A stretch of DNA of 24,782 bases, from IMG/VR virus record IMGVR_UViG_3300023697_000607, positions 1 through 24,782 of that record; one strand, written 5' to 3'. This document shows, piece by piece, positions 4,761 through 24,778 of this stretch. The translations under genes were made by a program, and so were the position numbers. How positions within the stretch are numbered: position 1 is the first letter of the stretch; each line of letters opens with the position of its first letter. Source of the DNA: a virus. The notes under the pieces are model-generated. The model did not search any database, was not told where the DNA came from, and worked only from the letters and a program-made list of their open reading frames with translations.

Positions 4761-6416
4761 TTAGAAGACGATAGGTAAAGGTGTGTACGAGTTGTTCGAG
4801 TTATAGTCACCGTTCATGTATTGACCAGCATAACCCGACACCATAACCTGTCCATCATCCATGAGAAAGACGAGGCCACCCTCAGATGTATTACCATAGG
4901 CGGCAATATCTGTTACGGTACGCACACCAATAGGAGCAAGAACAGGAGAACTACGCACTGTAACATCACCTACGCCAAGCTGGCCGTTGCCATTGTAGCC
5001 CCACACATACACTGTGCCGTTAGCGAGAAGCGCTGCGCCGAAGTTGTATGAACCTGTACCACCAATAACGGCTTTCACTACAGTGTTGCCAACAGGAAGT
5101 TGCACGAAGGTGGAACTAACTGTTGCAGCAACAACACCATTAGCGGAGTAGTTGCCTGCACCACAGCCCCATAGCGTACCATCCGTCTTCTTAATAAGCG
5201 TAACGGGGTAGTCGTAGGTTGTTGTATAGCAGTCGGCCACACTGGTCGCACATTGCACAGGTGTAAACTGGTTTGCCAGTGTACCATTACCCAGAGGCCC
5301 ATAAGTGACGTTTGTTCCCCAGCCATGTAAGGTACCTGTGCTGTCAAGAGCAAAAGCACACATGTAACCGCCAAAGACTTTCACAATAGTCTTGCCTGCA
5401 AGCGTACCACCAGTGCGCTGCACGGGCAAGTTTGCCTGTGTTACGCCACCGTCACCAAGTTGACCATCACCGTTGTAGCCCCACGAGTACAACTTACCAT
5501 CAGAAGTAACTGCATAGCATGCAGTGTAGCGTTCACGGCCAGTAACTAATTGGGTCACGTTGGCAAGCACAGGTAACTGGACAAACTGGTTGCGTTGTGT
5601 AACGTCACCAAGCCCTAATTGACCGTAGCCGTTGTAGCCACAGGAGTGTACAGTACCATCACTGCAAAGTACGAGTACGCTTTGATAGCCTTCATTGCCT
5701 CCAGCAGTGGCTACTTGCACAACAGTCTTGTTGTAGATGGAGCTTGTAGATAGACCACTCGCGTAGAACGGAACAGTGCGTGCTGTTGTATCGTTCGCAC
5801 CAAGTTGACCGTAGCCGTTGTAACCCCACGACCACAATTTACCATTCACGTCTAAACAGTAGCGTGCACCATCGTGCGTCTCGTACAATTCAGCCGCGCC
5901 GGGGAAGCCAGTGGGGAAGCCCGGACGCACAGGTGTACTACGTGCAAATGTAGTGCCATCGCCAAGGTTGTAGTTGTCGTTACGTCCCCAACGGCGCACG
6001 GTGTTGTCATTCATAATGACACCAAAATTGCGGTAGCAAGCAGTCTGACGATTCTTTGATGCGTTGCAAAGTTTCTTTACCTTTGTGCCAGAGCGCACAT
6101 CAGGAGTACCCCATGAGGGCATACCAGATGAGTTGACCGTCAACACTTGACCAGCAGTACCAGCAGCTAGCGCGGCAAGTGTTGTACCATTATGGTAAAT
6201 TACTTCGCCAGCGGAGCTGGAGACACCTTGCGTACCCTGCGCAAACAACTGCCACTTAGGCCCGTTTACTGTAGGAGTTACTCCGATGGTTGCATCAGCA
6301 ATACAGACGTAACTATCGCCATTGTAGGAGACTACATCCTGCTTGCTATAGGTGGTGCCTGCGGCATACACACCTTTCCAAGAGAATGCAATCTTCCCTA
6401 AATTTACTGTACCCAT
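4761..6416 (-). CDS. RCC1-type beta-propeller protein 2, probable receptor-binding tail protein
   Basis: This 551-residue protein is a relative of the preceding gene. Residues about 8-58 form the same W-G-x-Y...Y...D-V-V module (FSWKGVYAAGTTYSKQDVVS, NGDSYVCIADA). A linker typical of phage fibres (GTAGQVLTVNSSGMPSWG, about 86-103) joins it to eight RCC1-like repeats, much closer to consensus than in the first copy: LWSWGYNGYGQLG, VHSCGYNGYGQLG, LYSWGYNGDGQLG, VYVWGYNGNGQLG. The repeats leave near-identical DNA segments (for example around 4985, 5470, 5625 and 5812), which could recombine to gain or lose blades. The start ATG is preceded by AAGGACTCATA. The stop is one base before the holin ATG. 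The receptor-binding role is inferred from position and fold. Confidence 0.86.
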   Translation of the reverse strand: MGTVNLGKIAFSWKGVYAAGTTYSKQDVVSYNGDSYVCIADATIGVTPTVNGPKWQLFAQGTQGVSSSAGEVIYHNGTTLAALAAGTAGQVLTVNSSGMPSWGTPDVRSGTKVKKLCNASKNRQTACYRNFGVIMNDNTVRRWGRNDNYNLGDGTTFARSTPVRPGFPTGFPGAAELYETHDGARYCLDVNGKLWSWGYNGYGQLGANDTTARTVPFYASGLSTSSIYNKTVVQVATAGGNEGYQSVLVLCSDGTVHSCGYNGYGQLGLGDVTQRNQFVQLPVLANVTQLVTGRERYTACYAVTSDGKLYSWGYNGDGQLGDGGVTQANLPVQRTGGTLAGKTIVKVFGGYMCAFALDSTGTLHGWGTNVTYGPLGNGTLANQFTPVQCATSVADCYTTTYDYPVTLIKKTDGTLWGCGAGNYSANGVVAATVSSTFVQLPVGNTVVKAVIGGTGSYNFGAALLANGTVYVWGYNGNGQLGVGDVTVRSSPVLAPIGVRTVTDIAAYGNTSEGGLVFLMDDGQVMVSGYAGQYMNGDYNSNNSYTPLPIVF

Positions 6417-6425
6417 TATGAGTCC

Positions 6426-8087
6426 TTAGAAAATGATTTGATTAGGAACGGCGCGGTAGTTACCTTGTCGATCTTGGTTAGCCCATCCATTAGGTGCGCC
6501 TGTAGTATAGACGCGCCCATCTGTTGTGAGCATGTGGTAGGCAATGTTACTTGGTGTAGTGCTACCCTGCCCAGTCACAGCAAAGTCTGCAATCGTCTTC
6601 TCTAGTAGCACGAAGCCTGTGTGTGGAAGGGAACTACCATCTGTAATGTCTGCACGGCCTGACTGTCCTGCATCGTTGACGCCCCAAATAACCATCTTGC
6701 CATCAGAGCGTAACGCCGCACAAGATGTACCGTAGCTGCCACCTTTACAGCGGAGCTTGGTGACATTGGTTAAATACGTACCACCAATGGTTGTCCATGT
6801 TGTATGGTCAGCACCACCACCAATACCATAACCATTGTAGCCTGAGTGTTTAACTGTGCCATCTTTCATCAAGACAATACTACGTGAGTAACCACCAGCA
6901 AACGTGTAACAGTCAGCGACACCAGTTAAGCATTTATATGGGAATAGTGCATTGGTTGGGCCAATGTCTGTACCGATAGCTGTTCCAGTTCCCCAACTTC
7001 CGTTCACTGTGCCGCTATCATCACCCCACATATAGAGGTCGCCGTTATCTAGTACCACAGCCACACGGCGGTAGTAGTCAGCAGGAATAGCAGAGTTTAC
7101 TGTTTCATTTGCACGGATGCACTTAACAGTATTACTTTCACCCCATGGCATAAATAAGCGTGGGAGCTGATCGTCAAGATTGAGCCCAGACAAATAGGCC
7201 TGTCCACATGTCCACATGCGGCCAGCAGTATCGAGGAAGTAGGTTGCTGGATAATACCCACCAGACAAATACATATCCTTGATTGGTGTTGTTGCAGTGA
7301 ACGGCACAAGTTTGGGTACAGTTGATGTGCCTGCATACCCAAGTGTGGAGTAGCGGTTAGTTGCACTCCATGCGTACACCTTACCAGTTGAATCAATACA
7401 AGCCGCTGTGCGATAGTCGTAGTAGCCCAAACCAAACACCATCTTCACAATCTTAGCAGATGCTGGAATATCACCAGTACCATTTAATTTGTAAGGTGTC
7501 GCTCGTTCTGCATTACTACCAGAGCAACCATTTGTGTTTGCACCTGTATGCCATAAGCCACCACTTGCATCAATAAAGAATGTACAGTCATAACCTGACT
7601 GCATATCTGTGATAGGTGGGGTGCCGGGAGGAAATGCAACTTGTGCAGGCATAATGCGGTTGATAGCTTGGCTACCTGAGCCTCCCTGTCCGTTATCTTG
7701 TGCGCCCCACATGCGTACAGCGCCTTCATTCATAATGGCACCCATGCCAAAACGGTGCCCTGTATACTCACCACCAATATCTGTGTTGATTAGTTTAGTA
7801 GCGATAGTGCCATTACGCTCGTTCATAAAGCGGAACTCAACACCACCATCGCCATTACTATGGAGTACCATGCCCCAGCTACCACCAACAGCCACGCCAC
7901 CTGTTAGGAGTTTACCCCCTAAAAGTGCGTCTTGTTGTCCAAGAGCAAATGGTTGTGGTGAGCCACCTTGGATTACAAAGGCTCCACCATCTTTAAAAAC
8001 CACGTCACGTTCTTTATACGCGAGGTTAGTAGAGTAGATACCGCGCCAACGATAGCCAAGGTCGTCAATATTTAACTGTACGTTCAC
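6426..8087 (-). CDS. RCC1-type beta-propeller protein 1, probable receptor-binding tail protein
   Basis: This 553-residue protein starts at a GTG overlapping the fibre stop codon (GTGA). Residues about 8-40 (GYRWRGIYSTNLAYKERDVV then FKDGGAFVIQGG) resemble the small W/Y-rich carbohydrate-binding fold found at the ends of phage tail proteins and chitinases. From about residue 60 to the end there are about eight RCC1/ATS1-like repeats of the form (a)xxLxxDGxVxxWGxNxxGQxG, for example IMNEGAVRMWGAQDNGQGG, FIDASGGLWHTGANTNG, LRSDGKMVIWGVNDAGQSG and LTTDGRVYTTG. RCC1 repeats fold as a beta-propeller and bind other macromolecules. Context (between fibre anchor and holin, paired with a similar gene) supports a surface-recognition role; that role is inferred. 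Confidence 0.85.
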   Translation of the reverse strand: MNVQLNIDDLGYRWRGIYSTNLAYKERDVVFKDGGAFVIQGGSPQPFALGQQDALLGGKLLTGGVAVGGSWGMVLHSNGDGGVEFRFMNERNGTIATKLINTDIGGEYTGHRFGMGAIMNEGAVRMWGAQDNGQGGSGSQAINRIMPAQVAFPPGTPPITDMQSGYDCTFFIDASGGLWHTGANTNGCSGSNAERATPYKLNGTGDIPASAKIVKMVFGLGYYDYRTAACIDSTGKVYAWSATNRYSTLGYAGTSTVPKLVPFTATTPIKDMYLSGGYYPATYFLDTAGRMWTCGQAYLSGLNLDDQLPRLFMPWGESNTVKCIRANETVNSAIPADYYRRVAVVLDNGDLYMWGDDSGTVNGSWGTGTAIGTDIGPTNALFPYKCLTGVADCYTFAGGYSRSIVLMKDGTVKHSGYNGYGIGGGADHTTWTTIGGTYLTNVTKLRCKGGSYGTSCAALRSDGKMVIWGVNDAGQSGRADITDGSSLPHTGFVLLEKTIADFAVTGQGSTTPSNIAYHMLTTDGRVYTTGAPNGWANQDRQGNYRAVPNQIIF

Positions 8088-8998
8088 AATGTCACCACCA
8101 AAGAATTGTTAATGATCGAGAACGTGATGTTCTCACTAAGTGTTGATGCCAAGTAATTGGAGGCTGTATAGTTATCTCGCCCACTTTCCAAGATTAACTC
8201 AGTGCCGTCTGCTGAAAGTTTGAAACCATAGAATGTAGGCTTAGCCGCAGATTCCACAAATTCATAACCTGACGCATCAGCTTTGACTTGCAAGAATTTC
8301 AGCGCAGCCCCTACAAGACTGGATGGCAGTCCGGCAGCAAGCAGTTTAGCAGTTGTCTGCGCCAACAAGTCTTGCATGGTCGAAGTGATAGCGGCACTGT
8401 CTGCTGCTAGTTCACTTAAGATTGCACTACCATCTGAGTTAATTGTAGCAATCTTCTCATCACCAATAGTGGTGAGTGTAGCAATCGCAGTTGTAGCAGT
8501 TGCTTCGGCCTCAGCAGCAGAAGCAGCAGACGCAACAGCGGCAGCTTCGGATGCACCCTTAGCAGCTTGTGCTTGGGTAATCGCGTTATTAGCTGCGTCA
8601 AGCGTGATTGTGATTGAGGTAGTGAGTTGCTTAACCACATCAGCATTAGATGCGTCAGCAGTCTCAGCGCCAATAAACACAGCCTGCTGTGCTACCTTGT
8701 CCAAGTTAGCCTCAGTTAATCGGCTACCTGTTGTGAAGTCAACCAGAGGCCCACCCTTAGGTGTGTCTCGGTAGATCACGATGTTCTTGCCTACAGGCAC
8801 AGGAACACCAATGTCGATTGTGAAATCTCCTACGAACATCGAAGGCAGAATTTCAAGGTCAACCCGTGCTAGTGTCTCAGCGTCTTCAAGATACGCCTTA
8901 ACATGGGTCTTATCCATGTAGCCACCAGAGAAGCTGAACTCGAACTGCGTGTTCGTACCATCACCGGGAACCCGATATGTCGCGTATAGCGTAGTCAT
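8084..8998 (-). CDS. Short tail fibre / fibre adaptor, T7 gp17 N-terminal type
   Basis: This 304-residue protein carries the N-terminal phage T7 tail-fibre attachment domain (about residues 1-115): YATYRVPGDGTNTQFEFSFS, YMDKTHVKAYLEDAETLARV, GKNIVIYRDTPKGGPLVDFT and GSRLTEANLDKVAQQAVFIG parallel the start of gp17 including LVDFTDGSILRAYDLN. An alanine-rich coiled coil follows (about 120-230), then a short C-terminal beta-rich end. T7 gp17 is 553 residues, so the receptor-binding C-terminal part is missing or tiny. The stop overlaps the start of an RCC1 protein (GTGA), suggesting that this protein is the anchor and the two downstream proteins supply binding. Ribosome binding site GGAG, preceded by a promoter-like motif. 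Confidence 0.92.
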   Translation of the reverse strand: MTTLYATYRVPGDGTNTQFEFSFSGGYMDKTHVKAYLEDAETLARVDLEILPSMFVGDFTIDIGVPVPVGKNIVIYRDTPKGGPLVDFTTGSRLTEANLDKVAQQAVFIGAETADASNADVVKQLTTSITITLDAANNAITQAQAAKGASEAAAVASAASAAEAEATATTAIATLTTIGDEKIATINSDGSAILSELAADSAAITSTMQDLLAQTTAKLLAAGLPSSLVGAALKFLQVKADASGYEFVESAAKPTFYGFKLSADGTELILESGRDNYTASNYLASTLSENITFSIINNSLVVTL

Positions 8999-15756: not shown

Positions 15757-16533
15757 TTAATAAAGTGAATACTTGCTAGGGCTCGCTTTGAAACTATACG
15801 AATCAGGTGAGCCGCTGCTGAGGCTATATGGATTGCTTGAATCATACGGCGAGGGTGCAGCGTTAATTCCACCTGTCGTGTTCTGCACGCCACCGTTAGC
15901 TGCACCGGGCTGTGGTGCTTGCCCTGTGATGAGCGCCATAGCGTTCTCACCAGCAGAGATTACATCAGACCACATGTTGTCACTGATAAGGTTCTCCTTA
16001 GCAATAGACTGGCTGTAGTCAATGCCCGCGCTCACGTAGCTAAGGTCAAGCCCTGCTACCGTTTGAGGCATGATGCCACTGATCTGACCTAGCGTGTCAT
16101 ACGTTGCTTGGCCTTGTGCCTTGCGCCGCGCTTGTGCAGCGCGTGCGTTCTTGAGCTGCATGGTACGATCAATCATGTCAACCGCATTACCACCTGTGCC
16201 TGTCATCGCAACGTGGGCAGCATACGCGCCTCCAGCCTCAGCAGCAGCAAGCTGTGCTTCGAGGTTGCCAGTGGTGAATGCTTCTTGCATGCGTTGCAAA
16301 TTAGTTACGCCCGCTTCAAGATTCTTCGCACCAGCGGCAAGCCGCCGCTTGTTGTTCTCGGTCTGCATGAAATATGCAAGCCCGGTCTGTGCCGCCTTTG
16401 ACTCATTCTGCGCCTCACGAATAAGGTTAGATGCGTCAGCTTCGGCTTTCCATACTTGGTTTTGTGAGCGACGAATGGAGCGTGATTGCGTGCCATTGTA
16501 CAAGCTCATAAACAGGTTAGGACTTCCTGCCAT
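15757..16533 (-). CDS. Internal virion protein B, T7 gp14-like
   Basis: This 258-residue protein follows the nozzle gene directly; T7 has gp13 in between, which is absent here. T7 gp14 (196 residues) is part of the ejected core that forms a channel in the outer membrane. Visible features are an N-terminal hydrophobic patch (MAGSPNLFMSLYNG), a long helical/coiled-coil-prone region at residues about 25-145, rich in Ala/Gln/Glu (KAEADASNLIREAQNESKAA, RMQEAFTTGNLEAQLAAAEA), and a Gly/Asn/Pro-rich linker. The C-terminal tail (about 230-258) repeats Tyr-Ser pairs (NPYSLSS, DSYSFKA, SKYSLY), which is unusual and not a feature I know in gp14. The ATG is preceded by AGGAGG. The assignment is mostly positional plus helical character. 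Confidence 0.82.
   Translation of the reverse strand: MAGSPNLFMSLYNGTQSRSIRRSQNQVWKAEADASNLIREAQNESKAAQTGLAYFMQTENNKRRLAAGAKNLEAGVTNLQRMQEAFTTGNLEAQLAAAEAGGAYAAHVAMTGTGGNAVDMIDRTMQLKNARAAQARRKAQGQATYDTLGQISGIMPQTVAGLDLSYVSAGIDYSQSIAKENLISDNMWSDVISAGENAMALITGQAPQPGAANGGVQNTTGGINAAPSPYDSSNPYSLSSGSPDSYSFKASPSKYSLY
15819..15841 (-). promoter_or_regulatory. Candidate late promoter motif ahead of internal core protein C
   Basis: The minus strand reads CAAGCAATCCATATA then GCCTCA with proposed +1 G at 15824, 77 bases upstream of the ATG of the gp15-like gene. The match to the shared core TCCATATA(A/G)C is exact, but the following base differs from the other copies. It overlaps codons for Asn-Pro-Tyr-Ser in the Tyr/Ser-rich tail, so coincidence with coding is possible. 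Confidence 0.35.
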
Positions 16534-16542
16534 ACTACCTCC

Positions 16543-19080
16543 TTATACTCGCTTAGCGTTGTAGAAATACTGACCAGTCCATTCAAGGCTTGTCAGCGTC
16601 ATTGGGTACCACTCCTTAGAAGCGATCTTTAAAGTGTACGAGCGAACTTCACGTCCTACGAACACGGGCACAGCACCCTTGTGTACAGCTTGTTTGCCCA
16701 CCACGTTGGTAATGTCACCGAGAATACGGGCGTTAAAACTCAGGGCCACATCTTCACTGAACTCAGTGGTCGTTGTAGCTTCAAGACGTGCTGTATCAAC
16801 ATAGGCAATCGTCACACGAGTGCATGTCAAATAGCCAGTCACCACCACGTTACCCTTGCCATCACGCATGAACGGGTTGGTCATCTCGATATACGAGGTG
16901 AACGGTGCGCCACACACAAGGTCGCTAGATGGTACAGTTGGGAACTCACTCATCATCGACGGCACGTTAGCAAGAACTGCATCGCCCTGCAAATACGCAG
17001 AGGTGCCCTTCTTGTAGGCAGTGTGCACAGGTGTACCCAAGTGCCATGAACGGTTAGCGCTACCACCAATGACGGCGCTATATGGACGTGCAGAGTCGAG
17101 GTACGGCTTAGTGTCTAGCTTTGGGAGCAACGAAGCACGATCCACGCTTAACCATGTGCGAGTGACACCACTAGCATCCACGGCTGTGCGTGCCCAGTAC
17201 AACAGCACCTGTCCACGGTAGACGCTGAAACCAATAAGGTCGCCAAGCATCTCATCAAACTCCCAACGACTCCATGAGTCAAGCAGCCGCTCGCGGCCAC
17301 CTAGTGAGTCAATGTAGCGGAAGGTGTAAATCTTGTTGTAGCTATCGTTGGTACGGGCCAACAGCATGTTCGGTGAAGTCGTAGCGATAAACTCCAACGG
17401 CGTACCGGGAATGTAATCGTACAACTGCTGTGTAAGTTCCGAGCTGTTACTCGTGTCTGACACATCACCAATGGTGAGCTGGTACACTTGCGATACGCCC
17501 TCGCGCTCTTTCATGTAGAACACCAAGTCACCGGAAGCTACAGGCTCCGCAGTGGTAGTGTCCTCATGTGAGCTGGACTGAATCACAGAGATAGTAGCAG
17601 GCGTAACTGGGTTGCGGCCTGAGATACTGTACTGTGCCTTGTCACCGAATAGGAGCAGCGACTTGTCAAACAACACGGAGTTGCGGATAATGTCGTTCTC
17701 AGCACCAGTCGAGAACACCTCAACAGGGTCAGTGTCAACCACAGTCAGCACCGATGTGCGGAAGAAGTTGAAGTATTCACCAACCTCACTCATGGTAATG
17801 ACAGAGCCACTACCAATCACCAAGCGATCTTGGAAGTTACCAACGTAGGTAATAGGGTTGTTGATGAAGTACGGTGCGCGGTTTGAATCCAAGTCACCTA
17901 CGCTGCGGCCACCCAAGTCTGGGATAGCCAACGTGGGCACGAGCGTGCGCAGCTTAGCGGGTGTACTTGCAACATAGAAGTGCTCGCCCTCTACCGTACC
18001 GACAGCAAACCAGACACCGGGTGTAAAGCTATGTGAGGCCGCTTCTTCCCACACCACCTCAGTGTAACCTGTGGTACCGGGGACGCGAGGCACAGCCTTC
18101 AAGAAGTAGGCAGGGTCATTGTCCTTAGCCTGCACCTTGATTACTTTCCCAACGTAGTGCATGTTGGTAAGCTGTGAGGCCTCGACTACAGTTTGGTGAG
18201 CAGCACGCAAGAAGGTACCATCACCGTTGTCGTTCACCGTGATACCAGTCAAGGTAGCATCGTCAATAAACAAGTGGCTACCACTGCGAGTAACTGTGAT
18301 GCCTTGTGCTGCGATCAATGTGCGGAGCTGTTCAGCAACGGCCTGAGGTTGGGTAGCGGCAGCAGCCGAACCAATCCATGCAGTTACTGCGGAGTTGTAT
18401 GCGTTGACGCGATCATTCACCTGCTTCTGGTAATCAGTAGCGGTTGAGGGAATGTCGGATGTAACCAGCGTGCCTTGGTAAGAACTGCTAGGTGTCGTGT
18501 ACGCGATGGTTGTGATTGTGCCATTGCGTGTAATCACGACTGTGTACGTGCGTGAGTATGCCCCGCCCTTGACCCAGATCGAACCATAGCGGCGGTTAGC
18601 CACCACGCCATACACGTCCGTGCTCGCACCCGCTGGAGTGTGCGTCTTGCCCGCGATCACCATGATGCGGCCAATCTGGGCCACGCCGGAGACACCCCCG
18701 TGCAGAATGCTCAGAACGTCCGTATCGGCGCTATCGTACTCAACTGGTACGTTGGTATTGGTTGCCTTATTAAAGCAGTACAGCGGGGCTGTGGACGAGC
18801 CTGAGGGGCGTGCTGACTTACGGTACAGCAGGTCATACTCAGTCGTGCTGATTTTGAAGCCACGGGTAATGAAGCTGCGCAGGTCAGACTTGTCGCTCGC
18901 GTTTGGATTCGTGAGGATCGGAATGTCAATCAGGTTGTCCGTACCACGGCGGCGGGCTAGGCCTGCCACGGGGTCAGAGAGCATGTTGACTTGCTCACCG
19001 TGCTGCCCATCTAAGCGGGCCTCAGGGATTTGCTGGCTTACACCACGGTGTACCGTAGCGTAGGAACCGCTAACTTTCAT
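16543..19080 (-). CDS. Tail tubular protein B (nozzle), T7 gp12-like
   Basis: This 845-residue protein (T7 gp12 is 794) forms the hexameric conical tail nozzle. The N-terminus is diagnostic: GVSQQIPEARLDGQHGEQVN followed by LARRRGTDNL parallels ISQQPDILRYPDQGSRQVNG and LQKRPPLVFL in T7. Further family landmarks are NFQDRLVIGSGSVITMSEVG then EYFNFFRTSVLTVVDTDPVE (residues about 420-458), the SVLFDKSLLLFGDKAQYSIS block, and RLLDSWSRWEFDEMLGDLIG. It ends ...LEWTGQYFYNAKRV, comparable with the GCGWEGNYLRRSSGI end of gp12. The ribosome binding site AAGGAGACATT precedes the ATG, nine bases after the gp11-like stop. A copy of the promoter-like motif lies within its 3' half at 17078. Confidence 0.95.
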   Translation of the reverse strand: MKVSGSYATVHRGVSQQIPEARLDGQHGEQVNMLSDPVAGLARRRGTDNLIDIPILTNPNASDKSDLRSFITRGFKISTTEYDLLYRKSARPSGSSTAPLYCFNKATNTNVPVEYDSADTDVLSILHGGVSGVAQIGRIMVIAGKTHTPAGASTDVYGVVANRRYGSIWVKGGAYSRTYTVVITRNGTITTIAYTTPSSSYQGTLVTSDIPSTATDYQKQVNDRVNAYNSAVTAWIGSAAAATQPQAVAEQLRTLIAAQGITVTRSGSHLFIDDATLTGITVNDNGDGTFLRAAHQTVVEASQLTNMHYVGKVIKVQAKDNDPAYFLKAVPRVPGTTGYTEVVWEEAASHSFTPGVWFAVGTVEGEHFYVASTPAKLRTLVPTLAIPDLGGRSVGDLDSNRAPYFINNPITYVGNFQDRLVIGSGSVITMSEVGEYFNFFRTSVLTVVDTDPVEVFSTGAENDIIRNSVLFDKSLLLFGDKAQYSISGRNPVTPATISVIQSSSHEDTTTAEPVASGDLVFYMKEREGVSQVYQLTIGDVSDTSNSSELTQQLYDYIPGTPLEFIATTSPNMLLARTNDSYNKIYTFRYIDSLGGRERLLDSWSRWEFDEMLGDLIGFSVYRGQVLLYWARTAVDASGVTRTWLSVDRASLLPKLDTKPYLDSARPYSAVIGGSANRSWHLGTPVHTAYKKGTSAYLQGDAVLANVPSMMSEFPTVPSSDLVCGAPFTSYIEMTNPFMRDGKGNVVVTGYLTCTRVTIAYVDTARLEATTTTEFSEDVALSFNARILGDITNVVGKQAVHKGAVPVFVGREVRSYTLKIASKEWYPMTLTSLEWTGQYFYNAKRV
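17073..17095 (-). promoter_or_regulatory. Candidate late promoter motif inside the tail tubular B gene
   Basis: The minus strand reads CACGTCCATATA then GCGCCG with proposed +1 G at 17078. It shares the TCCATATAGCG core with the copy at 1548. It lies about 545 bases upstream of the gp14-like gene, comparable in layout to T7 phi13, which lies in the end of gene 12. It is in-frame coding sequence (Arg-Pro-Tyr-Ser), so coincidence is possible. Confidence 0.3.
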
Positions 19081-19089
19081 AATGTCTCC

Positions 19090-19695
19090 TTAACGGTAGC
19101 GTGCACGACGACCACCCATGTACGGACGGCGGTAGCCAATGATGTTTGCCAAGGTCGCTGCAACACCGGGGCGTGCAAGCATGTTAGACTTCTTGCGACG
19201 AATGTGCTCTGCGTTGAACACAACGAATGCACGTTGACGGCGATCAGTTAGCAGGCGGGTCTTAGTCTCATCACCGTCGATAGAGGTCTGAAACTGGATC
19301 AATGCCTCAGCACCAATGTAGGCGCGGGCTGACATGGGTAGCTCATCGAAGGCAACCAAGCGGTGCATACGCACGGGCACTTGGTCATCGAACTGATAGG
19401 TGCTATCGTCGTTGTTGTAGAGTTTGCCGTTACGCATCGACACGTTGGGTGATGCCGTAAGGGAATCTACTGCGAGGCAATCTGAGGGCAACAAGATTTC
19501 CTTGTTACCAACTTGAGGAATGAGGGTAGGTGTCTCTACGTTGAACCACCACTGGTCAGCTTGGATGCTGGACTGAGCGGTATCAATAGAGGACAGTGCG
19601 CGGGGCACTACGGGATGAAAAGCATCAAGGTCGTTGACTGGAAGTTCACCAAGCAGGCCTAGCATCTCGTTCACGATACTGAGAGTTGTAATCAA
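19090..19695 (-). CDS. Tail tubular protein A, T7 gp11-like (TTG start)
   Basis: This 201-residue adaptor (T7 gp11 is 196) forms the ring joining portal to tail nozzle. It has the family N-terminus: LSIVNEMLGLLGELPVNDLD matches the T7 pattern of a helix with N-x-x-L-x-x-x-G-E-P-P-V. QWWFNVETPTLIP corresponds to GWTFNIEEGITLLP, and LVAFDELPMSARAYI to the conserved DYDEMPECFRYWI. There is no ATG before the conserved region. The best start is the TTG at 19695, six bases after GGAG; other in-frame TTGs at 19707 and 19713 fall inside the terminator tail. The C-terminus is unusually basic (RRPYMGGRRARYR). The gene is the first after the terminator, and the rare start codon may further reduce its output. 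Confidence 0.92.
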   Translation of the reverse strand: MITTLSIVNEMLGLLGELPVNDLDAFHPVVPRALSSIDTAQSSIQADQWWFNVETPTLIPQVGNKEILLPSDCLAVDSLTASPNVSMRNGKLYNNDDSTYQFDDQVPVRMHRLVAFDELPMSARAYIGAEALIQFQTSIDGDETKTRLLTDRRQRAFVVFNAEHIRRKKSNMLARPGVAATLANIIGYRRPYMGGRRARYR

Positions 19696-19711
19696 AATTT
19701 TCTCCAAAAGC

Positions 19712-19742
19712 AAAAAACCCCCACCGAATGAACGATGGGGGT
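19712..19742 (-). terminator. Rho-independent-type terminator after the capsid gene (T-phi equivalent)
   Basis: On the minus strand ACCCCCATCG pairs with CGGTGGGGGT (10 bp with one G-U) around the loop TTCATT, followed by six T residues. It lies 24 bases after the capsid stop and just before tail tubular A, exactly where T7 carries its T-phi terminator. It probably lowers expression of the tail and core genes relative to the capsid. Confidence 0.93.
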
Positions 19743-20900: not shown

Positions 20901-21665
20901 AGAGCGCTTCGCTGCCAGACGTTGTGCCTGCAAAGCCTTGTAGGCTGGAGTGTCAGCAATGTCGCGGCCACCAGCGGCACGGGAAAGTTCCTGTACTGCT
21001 GCTGCATAGGCCTTAGCAGTAAGTGGTGCATTACCTGAACCACCAGCGCGGGCAGCATTAGGAGCCACCACCGAAGCGGGTTCCTGCACACTGCCTGCAC
21101 TCTTGTTGTAGCACTGCACCAAATAGTTCAGGGCCATCTTAGCTTGTGCGCCACCAGCAGCAAGCGCTGCATTGATGGTTTGCTTCTCTTGTGGATCAGC
21201 GTTTGCACTTGCCCACGCTTGGACTTGCGCCCAGCGTTCTTCGCCACCAGCAGCTTGTATTGCCAGTTGACCGAGAGCCTTTTCATTTGCTTCGTGCTTA
21301 GCCACCGTGTTCTGGTAGGCTTGTTCAGCCAATGCAATCACGTCTTGGTAGCCAGCAGCCTTTGCACCCATGGTCGCAAGCTGTGCTTGGATGAGGGTGA
21401 AGTCGCCAGACATAGCGGCTTGTACCGCTGCGTGCTCAGGGCCGAAGCCCAAGTTGCCCACAAAGTTCAATGCGTAGTCTAAGCCTACATCGCCTGTCTT
21501 CTCGTAAGTGACTGGCACTGTGGCCTCAGCAGCAGGAGCTGCGGGTTCAGCGGCTACGGCGGCAACAGTAACTACCGGAGCGGCTGGGACAACTACCGGA
21601 GCGGCAGGTGCAGCAGGCGCTGCGGGTGCAGCCGGGGCTGCGGCTTGTGTTACTTCATCTGTCAT
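20892..21665 (-). CDS. Capsid assembly scaffolding protein, T7 gp9-like
   Basis: This 257-residue acidic/alanine-rich protein lies between portal and major capsid genes, the gp9 position. Scaffold proteins direct procapsid assembly and leave before DNA packaging. The first 60 residues are an Ala-Pro repeat region (PAAPAAPAAPAAP), encoded by GC-rich repeated DNA at about 21600-21650 and probably unstructured. Residues about 65-200 are helical (TYEKTGDVGLDYALNFVGNL). The C-terminus is helical and basic (AYKALQAQRLAAKRSGY), the end that contacts the capsid protein in this family. It starts within the portal stop codon (ATGA). The candidate late promoter of the capsid gene begins within its last codons. 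Confidence 0.92.
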   Translation of the reverse strand: MTDEVTQAAAPAAPAAPAAPAAPVVVPAAPVVTVAAVAAEPAAPAAEATVPVTYEKTGDVGLDYALNFVGNLGFGPEHAAVQAAMSGDFTLIQAQLATMGAKAAGYQDVIALAEQAYQNTVAKHEANEKALGQLAIQAAGGEERWAQVQAWASANADPQEKQTINAALAAGGAQAKMALNYLVQCYNKSAGSVQEPASVVAPNAARAGGSGNAPLTAKAYAAAVQELSRAAGGRDIADTPAYKALQAQRLAAKRSGY

Positions 21666-23200
21666 TGAGCTTTAGCTCCTTGTGTGATTACGTTGCCAGC
21701 GGTCTGTGCAGCAGTCTCAGTCATCATTTGTTGCTGAGCCTGTTCTTGTACCTGTGCCTGTTCAGCTTGTTGTTCTTGTGCAGACTTAACAAACTTGGTG
21801 GCAGGAAGGCCATGACCGTGGAAGATTGTGGAGTAGATCACGTCCAACTTGAGTGGGCCTGTGATTTGTGGAGGAAGGCTACCGATCTGCGCCACGTCAC
21901 CGAGTGCAGAACGCATAGCGTCCAAGTCACCACTACGTGAGAGTGCATCCAAGCCAGTAACAATCGTGCGCTCAATCTGAGTTTTGCTCAGGTCAAGAGA
22001 CACAGCTTGCAACAACCAGTCAGCGACTGGGCCTTGGAAGTCTACAGCGATGCGTGAGTATGTACCACCAAGACTTGTCTCAAGCTCATTGGCTTGCTGA
22101 CGAATCTCCTCGGCAGTAACGCGCTCAGCGTCACGAGTGACAGCGCTGTTCAGCAAGAAGCCACGACCGATACGCTGGATGTAATCACTAGCGATGGCCT
22201 GCACAACTTGCAGATCACCGGGCTTGCTGTTCGCAATAAGTGATACGTCACCTTCGAGGCCGGGCAATGCTGCACCGTTCTCGCTTTCCTCCAAGTCCTC
22301 AGGCTTAGTCACACCACCGGGGTTGACCAACCAGCGGAACTCAGAAGACAGGATAGCACCCTTGATCTGAGATTCACTGAGGGCTGACAGAGCAGCGAAG
22401 TCGCCAGAGTAGTCCTCTACCAAGCCCGTGCCATAATCAGCTTCATCACTGATCTGCCATGTCAAGGCACGGTATGGTAACTTGTCCTCAGGCCAGTAGC
22501 CGTCGAACTCAGATGGCAAACGCTTAGTGTCAACCCACTGTGACATACGGTACTTACCGTCACGTTGACGTTCAATCCACTGGAAGAACTCAACCTCAGT
22601 CTCAGGGTTACACTTTGTCTTCTGTGCTACAAGGTAGTCTTGCACCTTCTGCTCAAGCTCGTCGTACATGACCTTCTCACGGATGAGGATGGTCTTGACT
22701 TTGCCAGCAGCAGTGCGGCGCACACAGTAGGACTTCACACCAAAGACACGCAGCTCGTCTTCCTTCTTGCGAGGGAGATACACGAGGGCATTGCCCAACA
22801 CAACGAGGTTGGACAAAGTTTGGTACAGCTTAGGACGCACGGTGCCACGACGATCAAGTTCCTTGATGGCTTCTTGTTCGCCCTTAGCAAGTGCTTCATC
22901 AATGTCAGCCTCAGGGATGCCCTGAGCTACTGCCTTCTTCTTCCAGTCTGGCTTAGCTTCTAAGCGGAAGAATGGACGAGAGGGAGCAAACAGTGCAAGC
23001 ACCAGTTTGTTGACAATGTGATTGACGGCTTGTGCACCAACTGATTGCCAGTCGTGTGCAAGCTCGTCGTTATCCTGCTTGTAGTTTTCCTCAGTGCAGA
23101 GACGTGGGAGTGTGAAGCCAGCGTACTTTTCGCAGCGGTTGATGAACCCCCGCCGCAAGCTAGTCAGCTTCTGACACTCGCCTAATGCGGTGTTCTTCAT
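21662..23200 (-). CDS. Portal (head-to-tail connector) protein, T7 gp8-like
   Basis: This 512-residue protein is close in length to T7 gp8 (536). It forms the dodecameric ring at the capsid vertex through which DNA is packaged and ejected. Characteristic features are the N-terminal helix with CEKYAGFTLPRL, the segment SVGAQAVNHIVNKLVLALFA followed by PSRPFFRLEA, the conserved LVVLGNALVYL, and the helical RVTAEEIRQQANELETSLGG near residue 360 typical of this connector family. The C-terminus is Gln/Ala-rich (about residues 465-512), as in relatives. The start is preceded by AAAGG. The TGA stop overlaps the scaffold ATG (ATGA), so the two are probably translationally coupled. Confidence 0.95.
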   Translation of the reverse strand: MKNTALGECQKLTSLRRGFINRCEKYAGFTLPRLCTEENYKQDNDELAHDWQSVGAQAVNHIVNKLVLALFAPSRPFFRLEAKPDWKKKAVAQGIPEADIDEALAKGEQEAIKELDRRGTVRPKLYQTLSNLVVLGNALVYLPRKKEDELRVFGVKSYCVRRTAAGKVKTILIREKVMYDELEQKVQDYLVAQKTKCNPETEVEFFQWIERQRDGKYRMSQWVDTKRLPSEFDGYWPEDKLPYRALTWQISDEADYGTGLVEDYSGDFAALSALSESQIKGAILSSEFRWLVNPGGVTKPEDLEESENGAALPGLEGDVSLIANSKPGDLQVVQAIASDYIQRIGRGFLLNSAVTRDAERVTAEEIRQQANELETSLGGTYSRIAVDFQGPVADWLLQAVSLDLSKTQIERTIVTGLDALSRSGDLDAMRSALGDVAQIGSLPPQITGPLKLDVIYSTIFHGHGLPATKFVKSAQEQQAEQAQVQEQAQQQMMTETAAQTAGNVITQGAKAQ

Positions 23201-23208
23201 GTTGGCCT

Positions 23209-23529
23209 TTAGATGCGAATACTAGAACCGGGAGTTCCAGTGTTGCTAGGAGGAGTGCGGAAGTTCTGACGTGACTTAGCTACGTTGCGATTCAATCGCC
23301 CTGTACCCACGTTCACCTCAGCGTCACCACCCTGTGCACCTGCCGCAGCTTGGGGGTTGCCCTGCTGAACAGACACGCTGGCAGTACCTTGCGCTTCGTT
23401 AGTTGCCACCTGCGTTGGTGCAGGAGCCGCTTGTTGTTGCTGAGGTGCTGACACGATGCCAACACTTTGAGCCAAGTCCACAACGGGATTAGCTACCTTC
23501 TTAACCAAATTTGAAACTGAACCGCCCAT
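23209..23529 (-). CDS. T7 gp7.3-like tail/adsorption protein, copy 2
   Basis: This 106-residue protein begins MGGSVSNLVKKVANPVVDL, an amphipathic helix much like the start of T7 gp7.3. A Gln/Ala/Pro-rich linker follows (QQQQAAPAPTQ), then a Gly/Ala stretch, then a basic segment (GRLNRNVAKSRQNFRTPP), and it ends SSIRI. The same -IRI terminus and MGG start occur in the preceding gene, making a tandem pair. Of the two, this one better fits the gp7.3 N-terminus and lies directly before the portal gene, nine bases away, as in T7. Expected role: minor virion protein at the tail, needed for fibre function or adsorption. The call is positional plus motif-based. Confidence 0.65.
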   Translation of the reverse strand: MGGSVSNLVKKVANPVVDLAQSVGIVSAPQQQQAAPAPTQVATNEAQGTASVSVQQGNPQAAAGAQGGDAEVNVGTGRLNRNVAKSRQNFRTPPSNTGTPGSSIRI

Positions 23530-23531
23530 GA

Positions 23532-23873
23532 TTAAATCCGAATAGGGTTGCCCGCTGGAGTAGCGGTGGATTGATAAGCAGCACGCTTACGTGCCGTCGA
23601 TGAGGTGCGCTTTGCAGCTACAACCTCGACCTCAGAAGCGCTTGTCGGTGCTTTAGCATCAGCAATTTCTTGCTCTACCTTTGCACGCGCCGCAGCATTC
23701 TCTTGCTGCATAGCTGCACCACGTGCCGTCTCACGGGCCTGTGCTGCTTGGGCTTCTGCCGATGCCTTGATGATTGCTGACTGTCGGTCAGCAGCGGCTT
23801 GGGCATCACCCGCTGGATCAATGCCTAATGCCTTGAATGGCATTGACGTTAGTTTCTCGATAGTTCCACCCAT
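23532..23873 (-). CDS. T7 gp7.3-like tail/adsorption protein, copy 1
   Basis: This 113-residue Ala/Lys/Arg/Gln-rich protein lies two genes upstream of the portal, where T7 encodes gp7.3, a small virion protein needed for adsorption and tail assembly. Shared general features are an N-terminal MGG/MGK segment, a low-complexity charged alpha-helical middle (coiled-coil-like, about residues 22-75, EAQAAQARETARGAAMQQ), a basic Ser/Arg patch (KRTSSTARKRAA) and a C-terminus ending NPIRI, comparable with the GGGINI end of T7 gp7.3. It starts at the ATG overlapping the previous stop and ends two bases before the next gene. Assignment rests on position and terminal motifs because this family diverges quickly. 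Confidence 0.62.
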   Translation of the reverse strand: MGGTIEKLTSMPFKALGIDPAGDAQAAADRQSAIIKASAEAQAAQARETARGAAMQQENAAARAKVEQEIADAKAPTSASEVEVVAAKRTSSTARKRAAYQSTATPAGNPIRI

Positions 23874-24310
23874 TAGAGTTTCCTTGTGAGATGTTGATGA
23901 GATGCTTTGTAACCAAAGCGGCCTAGTAGCTTAGCACGGTCTGCGTCACCGAAGTCTGTACCTATTACGATAGCGGTGCAGCCGTTGTCTGTAGCGAACT
24001 CCTCAATGGACTTCATAGCTGTGCGCATACCCAGCGGGGTGCCGGGGATGTGGTAGATGAAGTGCTCATAGAGTCCAAGGTCTTCGTTGGCAAACCCGTA
24101 ACCTATGCTGCACAGCATTAGGTAGCGGTTGTCTCCAACGATAGCATGCACATCTGGGTGAGCGCCACGCAGGGTTAGCATCAGTTCGTGCTCTACTCGA
24201 CCCCGCCTATAAGTGGGGTGCCGTAGTAAGAACTGATCTGTAATGTCCTGCAAGTGGTCGAGTAACTCTGGGCAATCTCTTGCCAAGACATAGTTACTTA
24301 CCGATGACAT
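23873..24310 (-). CDS. GNAT-like acyltransferase-fold protein
   Basis: This 145-residue protein is called from the ATG giving MSSVSNYVLARDCPELLDHL. A longer frame open to 24382 would run through most of the preceding small gene and has a poor N-terminus, so it is not preferred. The spacing from the upstream GAGAAGG to this ATG is unusually short, so the exact start is uncertain. The C-terminal third (IEEFATDNGCTAIVIGTDFG, then RAKLLGRFGYKASHQHLTRK) has the strand, helix, GFGY-type turn and final strand typical of GNAT motif B. The pyrophosphate-loop motif A (Q/RxxGxG/A) is weak (GTPLGMRT). T7 gp13, an internal virion protein, also has GNAT-like features, so a virion or assembly role is as likely as an enzymatic one. 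The stop overlaps the next start (TAATG). Confidence 0.68.
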   Translation of the reverse strand: MSSVSNYVLARDCPELLDHLQDITDQFLLRHPTYRRGRVEHELMLTLRGAHPDVHAIVGDNRYLMLCSIGYGFANEDLGLYEHFIYHIPGTPLGMRTAMKSIEEFATDNGCTAIVIGTDFGDADRAKLLGRFGYKASHQHLTRKL

Positions 24311-24473
24311 AGCCTTCTCGCAGCATCTTGAGTACATGCTGAATGCCCAACTGGAACCCGGCTTGCAGGTCAGTGGTGTCACGTTGCACGCTAGGTGCAG
24401 GCAGCTTGCGCTCTAAGTCCTCGTAGACTTCTTTCGTCAAGCGTGCGTATGTTTTTGCAACTACTTCGCCCAT
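24294..24473 (-). CDS. Small conserved-looking protein, unknown function (59 aa)
   Basis: This short reading frame begins at the ATG overlapping the MazG-like stop codon (TAATG) and runs 59 codons to a TAA. It starts MGEVVAKTYARLTKEVYEDL, continues with LERKLPAPSVQRDTTDLQ and ends in an amphipathic stretch, FQLGIQHVLKMLREGYVIGK. There is no signal peptide or membrane segment. Composition (charged, helix-forming, no rare-residue runs) is like a real small soluble phage protein, and it exactly fills the space between two genes. Its end overlaps the next gene by 17 bases. The family is not recognised; the position suggests an accessory or structural late protein. The tight TAATG coupling is the main reason to call it. 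Confidence 0.72.
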   Translation of the reverse strand: MGEVVAKTYARLTKEVYEDLERKLPAPSVQRDTTDLQAGFQLGIQHVLKMLREGYVIGK

Positions 24474-24778
24474 TATGCTTCCTTCACAAATACACCATTG
24501 GGTAGCGTAGTACCCTTGCGGTCTTTGATCTCGTCATAAGCTAACTCCATGCAGCTCACGAGATCAATGTCTCGCAATGCACAGTAGTTAATCAGACAAA
24601 CCATCACGTCACCCACGCCGTCCTTCTGCTTAGCAGTGTCGCCCTTGATCTCTGCATCACACAACTCACCGAGTTCTGATACAGCCTTGAGCAACTGAGT
24701 ATGCGGCTTGGAGTTTGGGATAATCTTGCGGGCCTCAGCCCACTGGATAATTTGAATTTCTACTTCTGAGTAACTCAT
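24473..24778 (-). CDS. MazG-like nucleotide pyrophosphohydrolase
   Basis: This 101-residue protein resembles the small MazG-like all-alpha NTP pyrophosphohydrolases found in many T7-like phages, which hydrolyse (d)NTPs or ppGpp-type nucleotides to monophosphates. Visible features are the helix with SELGEL (E35 and E38, the ExxE half of the metal site) and the second helix KDGVGDVMVCLINY with D57. The Glu expected three residues before D57 is Gly54, with Asp53 beside it, so the second metal half-site is the D-x-x-G-D variant seen in phage members rather than the textbook ExxD. The start lies four bases inside the window edge, so its ribosome binding site cannot be seen. The stop codon overlaps the next gene in TAATG, implying coupled translation. 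The family call is good; substrate and activity are inferred. Confidence 0.8.
   Translation of the reverse strand: MSYSEVEIQIIQWAEARKIIPNSKPHTQLLKAVSELGELCDAEIKGDTAKQKDGVGDVMVCLINYCALRDIDLVSCMELAYDEIKDRKGTTLPNGVFVKEA

Follow-up and report, generated by a model that had tools for sequence, protein, structure and literature searches.

Two small proteins encoded just upstream of the portal in a T7-like podophage share a C-terminal tag, a candidate docking peptide of the tail channel

Two adjacent coding genes, A and B, directly precede the portal gene in a part of a T7-like podophage covered by the 24,782-nt stretch of DNA analysed here (IMG/VR record IMGVR_UViG_3300023697_000607, positions 1 to 24,782; hereafter the window). 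The small proteins that they specify end in the same kind of peptide; this terminal motif is enriched among genes at the same place in other phages, the ends of A and B are conserved, and in phages encoding two such proteins the two ends match each other. By analogy with T7, A and B are, at a probability of about 0.68, minor virion proteins of the tail lumen, each docked by this common kind of C-terminal peptide.

Gene order, coding status and conservation

The structural genes of the window lie on the minus strand, as do all features given below by window coordinates. Gene A (23532-23873) encodes 113 aa that start MGGT and end NPIRI, and gene B (23209-23529) encodes 106 aa that start MGGS and end SSIRI, so the two adjacent open reading frames described in the earlier note were confirmed. 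Directly upstream of A is an acetyltransferase-like gene (23873-24382; phrog_6472, E 2.8e-7; phrog_1249 acetyltransferase, E 0.025), which is the usual neighbour in relatives too; a phrog_5112 protein (24294-24473) and a MazG-like gene (24473-24778) lie on its far side. The next gene downstream of B encodes the portal protein (21662-23200; phrog_449, E 9.1e-179), followed by scaffold and capsid genes named by gene order alone, a T7 gp11-like adaptor (19090-19713; phrog_446 tail protein, E 1.2e-52), a T7 gp12-like nozzle protein (16543-19080; solved nozzle proteins, best E 1e-35; T7 gp12, E 8.1e-24), which is the proposed docking partner, and an internal virion protein (15757-16533). Elsewhere in the window, two adjoining RCC1-repeat proteins of ~550 aa (4761-6416 and 6426-8087; PF25390 RCC1-like domain, E 2e-54 and 8.2e-36) come after a short tail-fibre-type protein (8084-8998; PF03906, T7 tail-fibre N-terminal domain, E 2.7e-12), a combination that would make an unusual receptor-binding module.

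Both A and B look like real genes under purifying selection, with pN 0.065 and pS 0.569 for A, and pN 0.175 and pS 0.619 for B, between the window and L004 (the L numbers denote portal loci of the survey described below). An AAGGA ribosome site is found upstream of A. B starts 2 nt past the stop of A, as it does in L004 (1 nt in L005), without an evident ribosome site, which suggests that translation of B is coupled to that of A.

The two bodies differ. A is composed of a predicted helical body, a basic cluster (ARKRAAY) and the C-terminal tag, and its low-confidence AlphaFold model has a long helix at residues 20-74 (mean pLDDT 65.8, pTM 0.26). B has a mostly disordered body, a basic stretch (RLNRNVAKSRQNF) and the tag, and is modelled, again at low confidence, mostly without regular structure and with a helix at residues 78-91 (mean pLDDT 54.2, pTM 0.19). 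The middles, described in the earlier note as unrelated low-complexity helices, are therefore helical by prediction in A; that description does not suit B.

Both proteins are present in L004 and L005, whose portals are 92% and 90% identical to that of the window, whereas L041, with a portal 70% identical, has a single A-like protein, ending AAGSIRI. The B protein of L005 has a much longer N-terminal part and the same end. Identity is higher in the last 20 residues than in the rest for A (95% versus 88% with L004; 90% versus 73% with L005) and for B (100% versus 71%; 70% versus 37%), and the last 20 residues of B show pN 0.000 at pS 0.457 against L004. A broader claim, of strongest conservation over the last 35 residues, was given up, as it fails for A against L005, where these residues are not better conserved than the rest (pN 0.278 versus 0.156). 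In the last 20 codons of A, pS against L004 is 0.118, compared with 0.679 in the rest; this low synonymous change at the end of A (window 23529-23552) looks as if start signals of B constrain the DNA. Such signals would add to conservation at the end of A, part of which may thus be due to the start region of B in the same DNA.

A terminal motif of genes before the portal

Portal loci were collected from 25 named-phage regions and from IMG/VR, and those with over 450 nt of upstream sequence, 255 in all, were grouped at 90% portal identity into 165 clusters. For 162 of these the gene before the portal was counted, leaving out L004 and L005 as near relatives of the window and L082, where no ORF ends before the portal. 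A motif of the form small-hydrophobic-x-hydrophobic, [GSATNP][ILV]x[ILVFYM] within three residues of the end, was present in 114 of these 162 genes (70%), compared with 0.6-8.6% across four control sets: portals themselves (1/160), the genes next downstream (6/149), other long ORFs upstream (18/319) and shadow frames of the portal gene (8/93). Because the pattern was written after many ends had been seen, the 70% is descriptive only, and it is the contrast with the controls that counts. The C-terminal motif is thus kept among relatives, which the earlier note had set as a test. Its middle residue is N, R, G, T, S, Q or others; since this residue varies and is not basic as a rule, 'hydrophobic-basic-hydrophobic', the wording of that note, does not describe it. 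Among the 48 genes lacking the motif, some were picked in error because the longest ORF was taken, as in T7, where gp7.7, itself without the motif, lies between 7.3 and the portal, and others appear to be true exceptions (S28phi1, L064 and others). The terminal tag seems, in many related viruses, to be a fastening of a small protein in the tail channel, the exit route of the DNA.

A C-terminal HMM trained on 37 motif-chosen proteins of other phages, with the window clade and L041 left out, placed A (E 0.0032) and then B (E 0.010) at the top of the 177 window ORFs, the next being at 1.7. When all 48 proteins were used with no motif filter, A and B remained first and second at E 0.046 and 0.14, values that alone would not be significant. 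With the last four or five residues cut from training set and target, A stayed first (E 0.004-0.007), whereas B lost significance, coming second at E 0.59 or 0.37, or fourth at E 1.7 when a closer training set was used. A therefore carries a longer module; in B only the tag itself is clear, the part before it being no more than suggestive. From the HMM and profile comparisons, the module is placed in about the last 34 residues plus stop of A (23532-23636) and about the last 38 residues plus stop of B (23209-23325), the latter weak without its last four residues.

Profile comparisons were each run with 100 column-shuffled controls. A against B aligned weakly, over the last 36 columns with a probability of 0.8, 1/100 shuffles being as high, when three A rows were used, and over 32 columns with a probability of 11.5 (E 0.0026) when L041 was added as a fourth; BLASTP of A against B gave nothing, and tblastn of either against 50,697 phage records gave no match at E up to 1. 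A matched phrog_9212 (E 4.7e-4, residues 21-105) and, in profile, 19 phrog_9212/6529-type relatives along its length (residues 13-113, probability 96.9, 0/100 shuffles as high). These two families, of unknown function (Paku, EspYZU05, P26059B, Scott and Babayka), have the same gene place and the same kind of end as A, which by this homology belongs to an unnamed phrog_9212/6529 family. B matched the same relatives in the last 21 columns only (0/100 shuffles as high), with no match of the body and no hit to these families in the PHROG search, and on these comparisons is best described as a second protein of the gene place, sharing only the C-terminal region with the family of A. In Pfam, no match was found for A and one chance-level match for B.

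The shared MGG start means little. An N-terminal HMM ranked A eighth (E 3.4) and B nineteenth (E 12) of the window ORFs, and the start was dropped as evidence because this model recognises neither protein; moreover, M-G or M-C begins 97 of 164 genes before the portal, with C as residue 2 in 51 of 164. It is not diagnostic, and its reading as a meaningful motif, as in the earlier note, was abandoned.

Likeness to T7 gp7.3 and docking in the tail

A docking tail-channel protein is already known from the T7 structure. According to the report of that structure (PMC11784390), six copies of gp7.3 residues 84-98 lie at the nozzle-adaptor junction. Each copy is anchored on a pair of adjacent gp12 nozzle subunits, with K84 and K85 at the DNA end; gp7.3 is proposed to act as a scaffold when the nozzle attaches, and particles assembled in its absence do not adsorb. 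The comparison with its end holds, gp7.3 (phrog_1320 'host range and adsorption protein'; PDB 9jyz) ending GGGINI. Like gp7.3, A and B are small and encoded shortly before the portal, and both carry basic residues near the C-terminus followed by a small-hydrophobic-x-hydrophobic end. The likeness of A to gp7.3 does not extend to detectable homology, with no phrog_1320 hit at E up to 1 and 48/100 column shuffles as high. B gave a weak match to gp7.3 over 11 columns toward the N-terminus, away from the C-terminus (1/100 shuffles as high), and phrog_1320 was matched at E 0.0018 by the L004 B and at 0.46 by the window B, the L005 B not being listed. The phrog_9212/6529-type relatives matched gp7.3 in about the last 10 columns only (0/100 shuffles). 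What joins the family of A, B and gp7.3 is thus the C-terminus. The suggestion that this end is a docking peptide gains from its conservation at this gene, from the anchoring of the gp7.3 end in T7 (PMC11784390), and from the matching of ends within pairs (below).

From T7 we infer docking at the nozzle, contact with DNA, a role in assembly and the presence of both proteins in virions of this phage. A and B would each consist of a body of its own and a shared kind of C-terminal docking region, in which the basic cluster could lie against the DNA end and the terminal peptide would insert at the nozzle-adaptor junction, as do the last residues of gp7.3. Both would aid assembly of the nozzle onto the adaptor, fill the channel until ejection and leave early when it occurs; across the wider clade, A would be the protein usually encoded at this position, with B as a second one.

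Another small virion protein from the same region of T7, gp6.7 (phrog_1391), lies around the portal barrel in the head (PMC11784390). One of the two proteins here, most likely A, might dock on the nozzle while the other had taken over the role of gp6.7, bridging portal and core proteins in the head, its end being left from a duplication. In its favour, a scan of eight window proteins turned up no phrog_1391-type protein, several A-type relatives have MCFG or MCG starts that somewhat resemble the start of gp6.7 (MCFS), and a gp6.7 homologue (L128:1612-1836; phrog_1391, E 7.5e-24) ends SGVNMG, near the tag. However, at E up to 1 there is no phrog_1391 match for A or for B, whereas gp6.7 itself gives one at 2.1e-33; the tag of B is constrained at the protein level, as its last 20 residues show; and the ends of pairs match within phages. 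We consider this division of roles unlikely. In a separate observation, genes that start MC like gp6.7 and end GLNI like gp7.3 occur widely before the portal in marine T7-like phages (L027:2752-2967, L030:2573-2995 and many A2-type loci), and the two T7 proteins may be relatives or have merged in part.

The tag could instead bind the adaptor, the portal or a core protein in the window clade, given that the gene adjoins the portal gene and that, as far as the literature covered goes, nozzle docking is reported for T7 alone. This is similarly improbable: the same kind of end lies on the nozzle in T7 (PMC11784390), and a phiKMV-type relative is deposited as a 'tail channel protein' (PDB 9s0y). 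The latter comes from the gene that precedes the portal (phiNFS, E 4.2e-51) and ends LGINY. A further deposited protein, gp20 of PDB 23sg, is similar to VP93-type (E 0.0017) and phiNFS-type (E 0.00087) proteins and has the end NPLGL, which it shares with the protein encoded before the portal in L242. Both deposited proteins are unlike A and B in sequence except at the end, and as far as seen neither is one of a pair. The Scott, SP6 and Paku proteins had no PDB match at E up to 1.

Pairs of tagged proteins

Two small genes directly before the portal are also found in JG068 (gp30 and gp31), the likeness being one of gene position; in the available part of its report they are annotated as hypothetical and without relatives, and no additional structural proteins are named (PMC3765740). 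Paku likewise has a gene pair directly before the portal, with ends GAGISIS and GSGITLS. In the survey, tagged pairs were found in 16 of 164 clusters, an assignment that is partly manual: a rule of tight gene coupling listed 25 loci, of which, by eye, 13 were accepted (L005, L020, L043, L045, L053, L059, L067, L085, L114, L146, L166, L173 and L235) and 12 rejected (L024, L031, L035, L072, L080, L086, L154, L163, L183, L216, L241 and L260), and three missed by the pattern or distance rule were added (L004, L015 and L030). The single state at the other loci of the 164 clusters may hide missed pairs. Counting upstream motif ORFs without tight coupling gave 49/753, no better than the 49/878 on the opposite strand, and this count was therefore not used. 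On a quick portal tree of 57 rows, 13 of them paired, with SH-aLRT support only, the pair state requires nine changes, at least eight of them on starred branches, and 8 of 500 shuffles need as few. The pair state is thus somewhat clustered, with gain and loss indistinguishable.

Matching within phages was examined in 15 pairs, namely the window (standing for L004 and L005), L016 (a cluster-mate of L015) and 13 others. For the last eight residues the match within phages was 19.3, compared with 13.4 between phages, and none of 20,000 permutations was as high; residues -40 to -9 also matched better within phages (p 0.004). No better match within phages was seen for the body (p 0.11) or for the first 30 residues (p 0.25), the latter comparison being rough, with eleven upstream members taken as whole stop-to-stop frames and the downstream ones begun at the start codon that gives the longest product. 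Matching of the last eight residues persisted when three doubtful pairs were removed (p 0.0002) and among the eight proteobacterial-type pairs alone (p 0.022). Because the types of end are specific to clades, descent accounts for part of the matching; fitting of both ends to one nozzle would also explain it.

Alternatively, B might be redundant, recently added and with no role of its own, and the matching ends would then reflect common descent in clades rather than fitting to one site, a reading that agrees with the single such protein of L041 and with the clade-specific ends. It is nevertheless very unlikely, since B is under purifying selection, the pairs are scattered on the portal tree and the matching holds within the proteobacterial-type pairs. 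That the shared -IRI is a coincidence between two low-complexity proteins, both rich in A, Q and S, is hardly credible; a three-residue match alone would be weak, yet coincidence is contradicted by the motif survey, the HMM ranks, the within-pair matching and the selection on both genes.

Docking of both A and B by a common kind of peptide could have a wider form, which is put forward tentatively and has somewhat less than even odds. The terminal peptide may be a general plug-in tag for T7-type nozzles, repeatedly joined to unrelated bodies, and phages with two tagged proteins may build a mixed plug whose partners divide the work and are fitted to the same nozzle sites. In such a plug, helical A might be an assembly scaffold or spacer, with disordered B around the DNA end. 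Among open-licence PubMed Central papers, no description was found of a general terminal tag, of its use by families with unrelated bodies or of recurrent matched pairs. Together with the gene place, the tag offers a simple finder for such proteins and predicts where they sit, turning hypothetical genes into testable structural ones, and pairs with matched ends provide a natural test of two ligands at one symmetric docking site. Large second partners with the same kind of end were also observed, of 355 aa in L235 (1406-2473) and 209 aa in L043 (1857-2486), with weak PHROG matches (best E 0.002 and 0.007).
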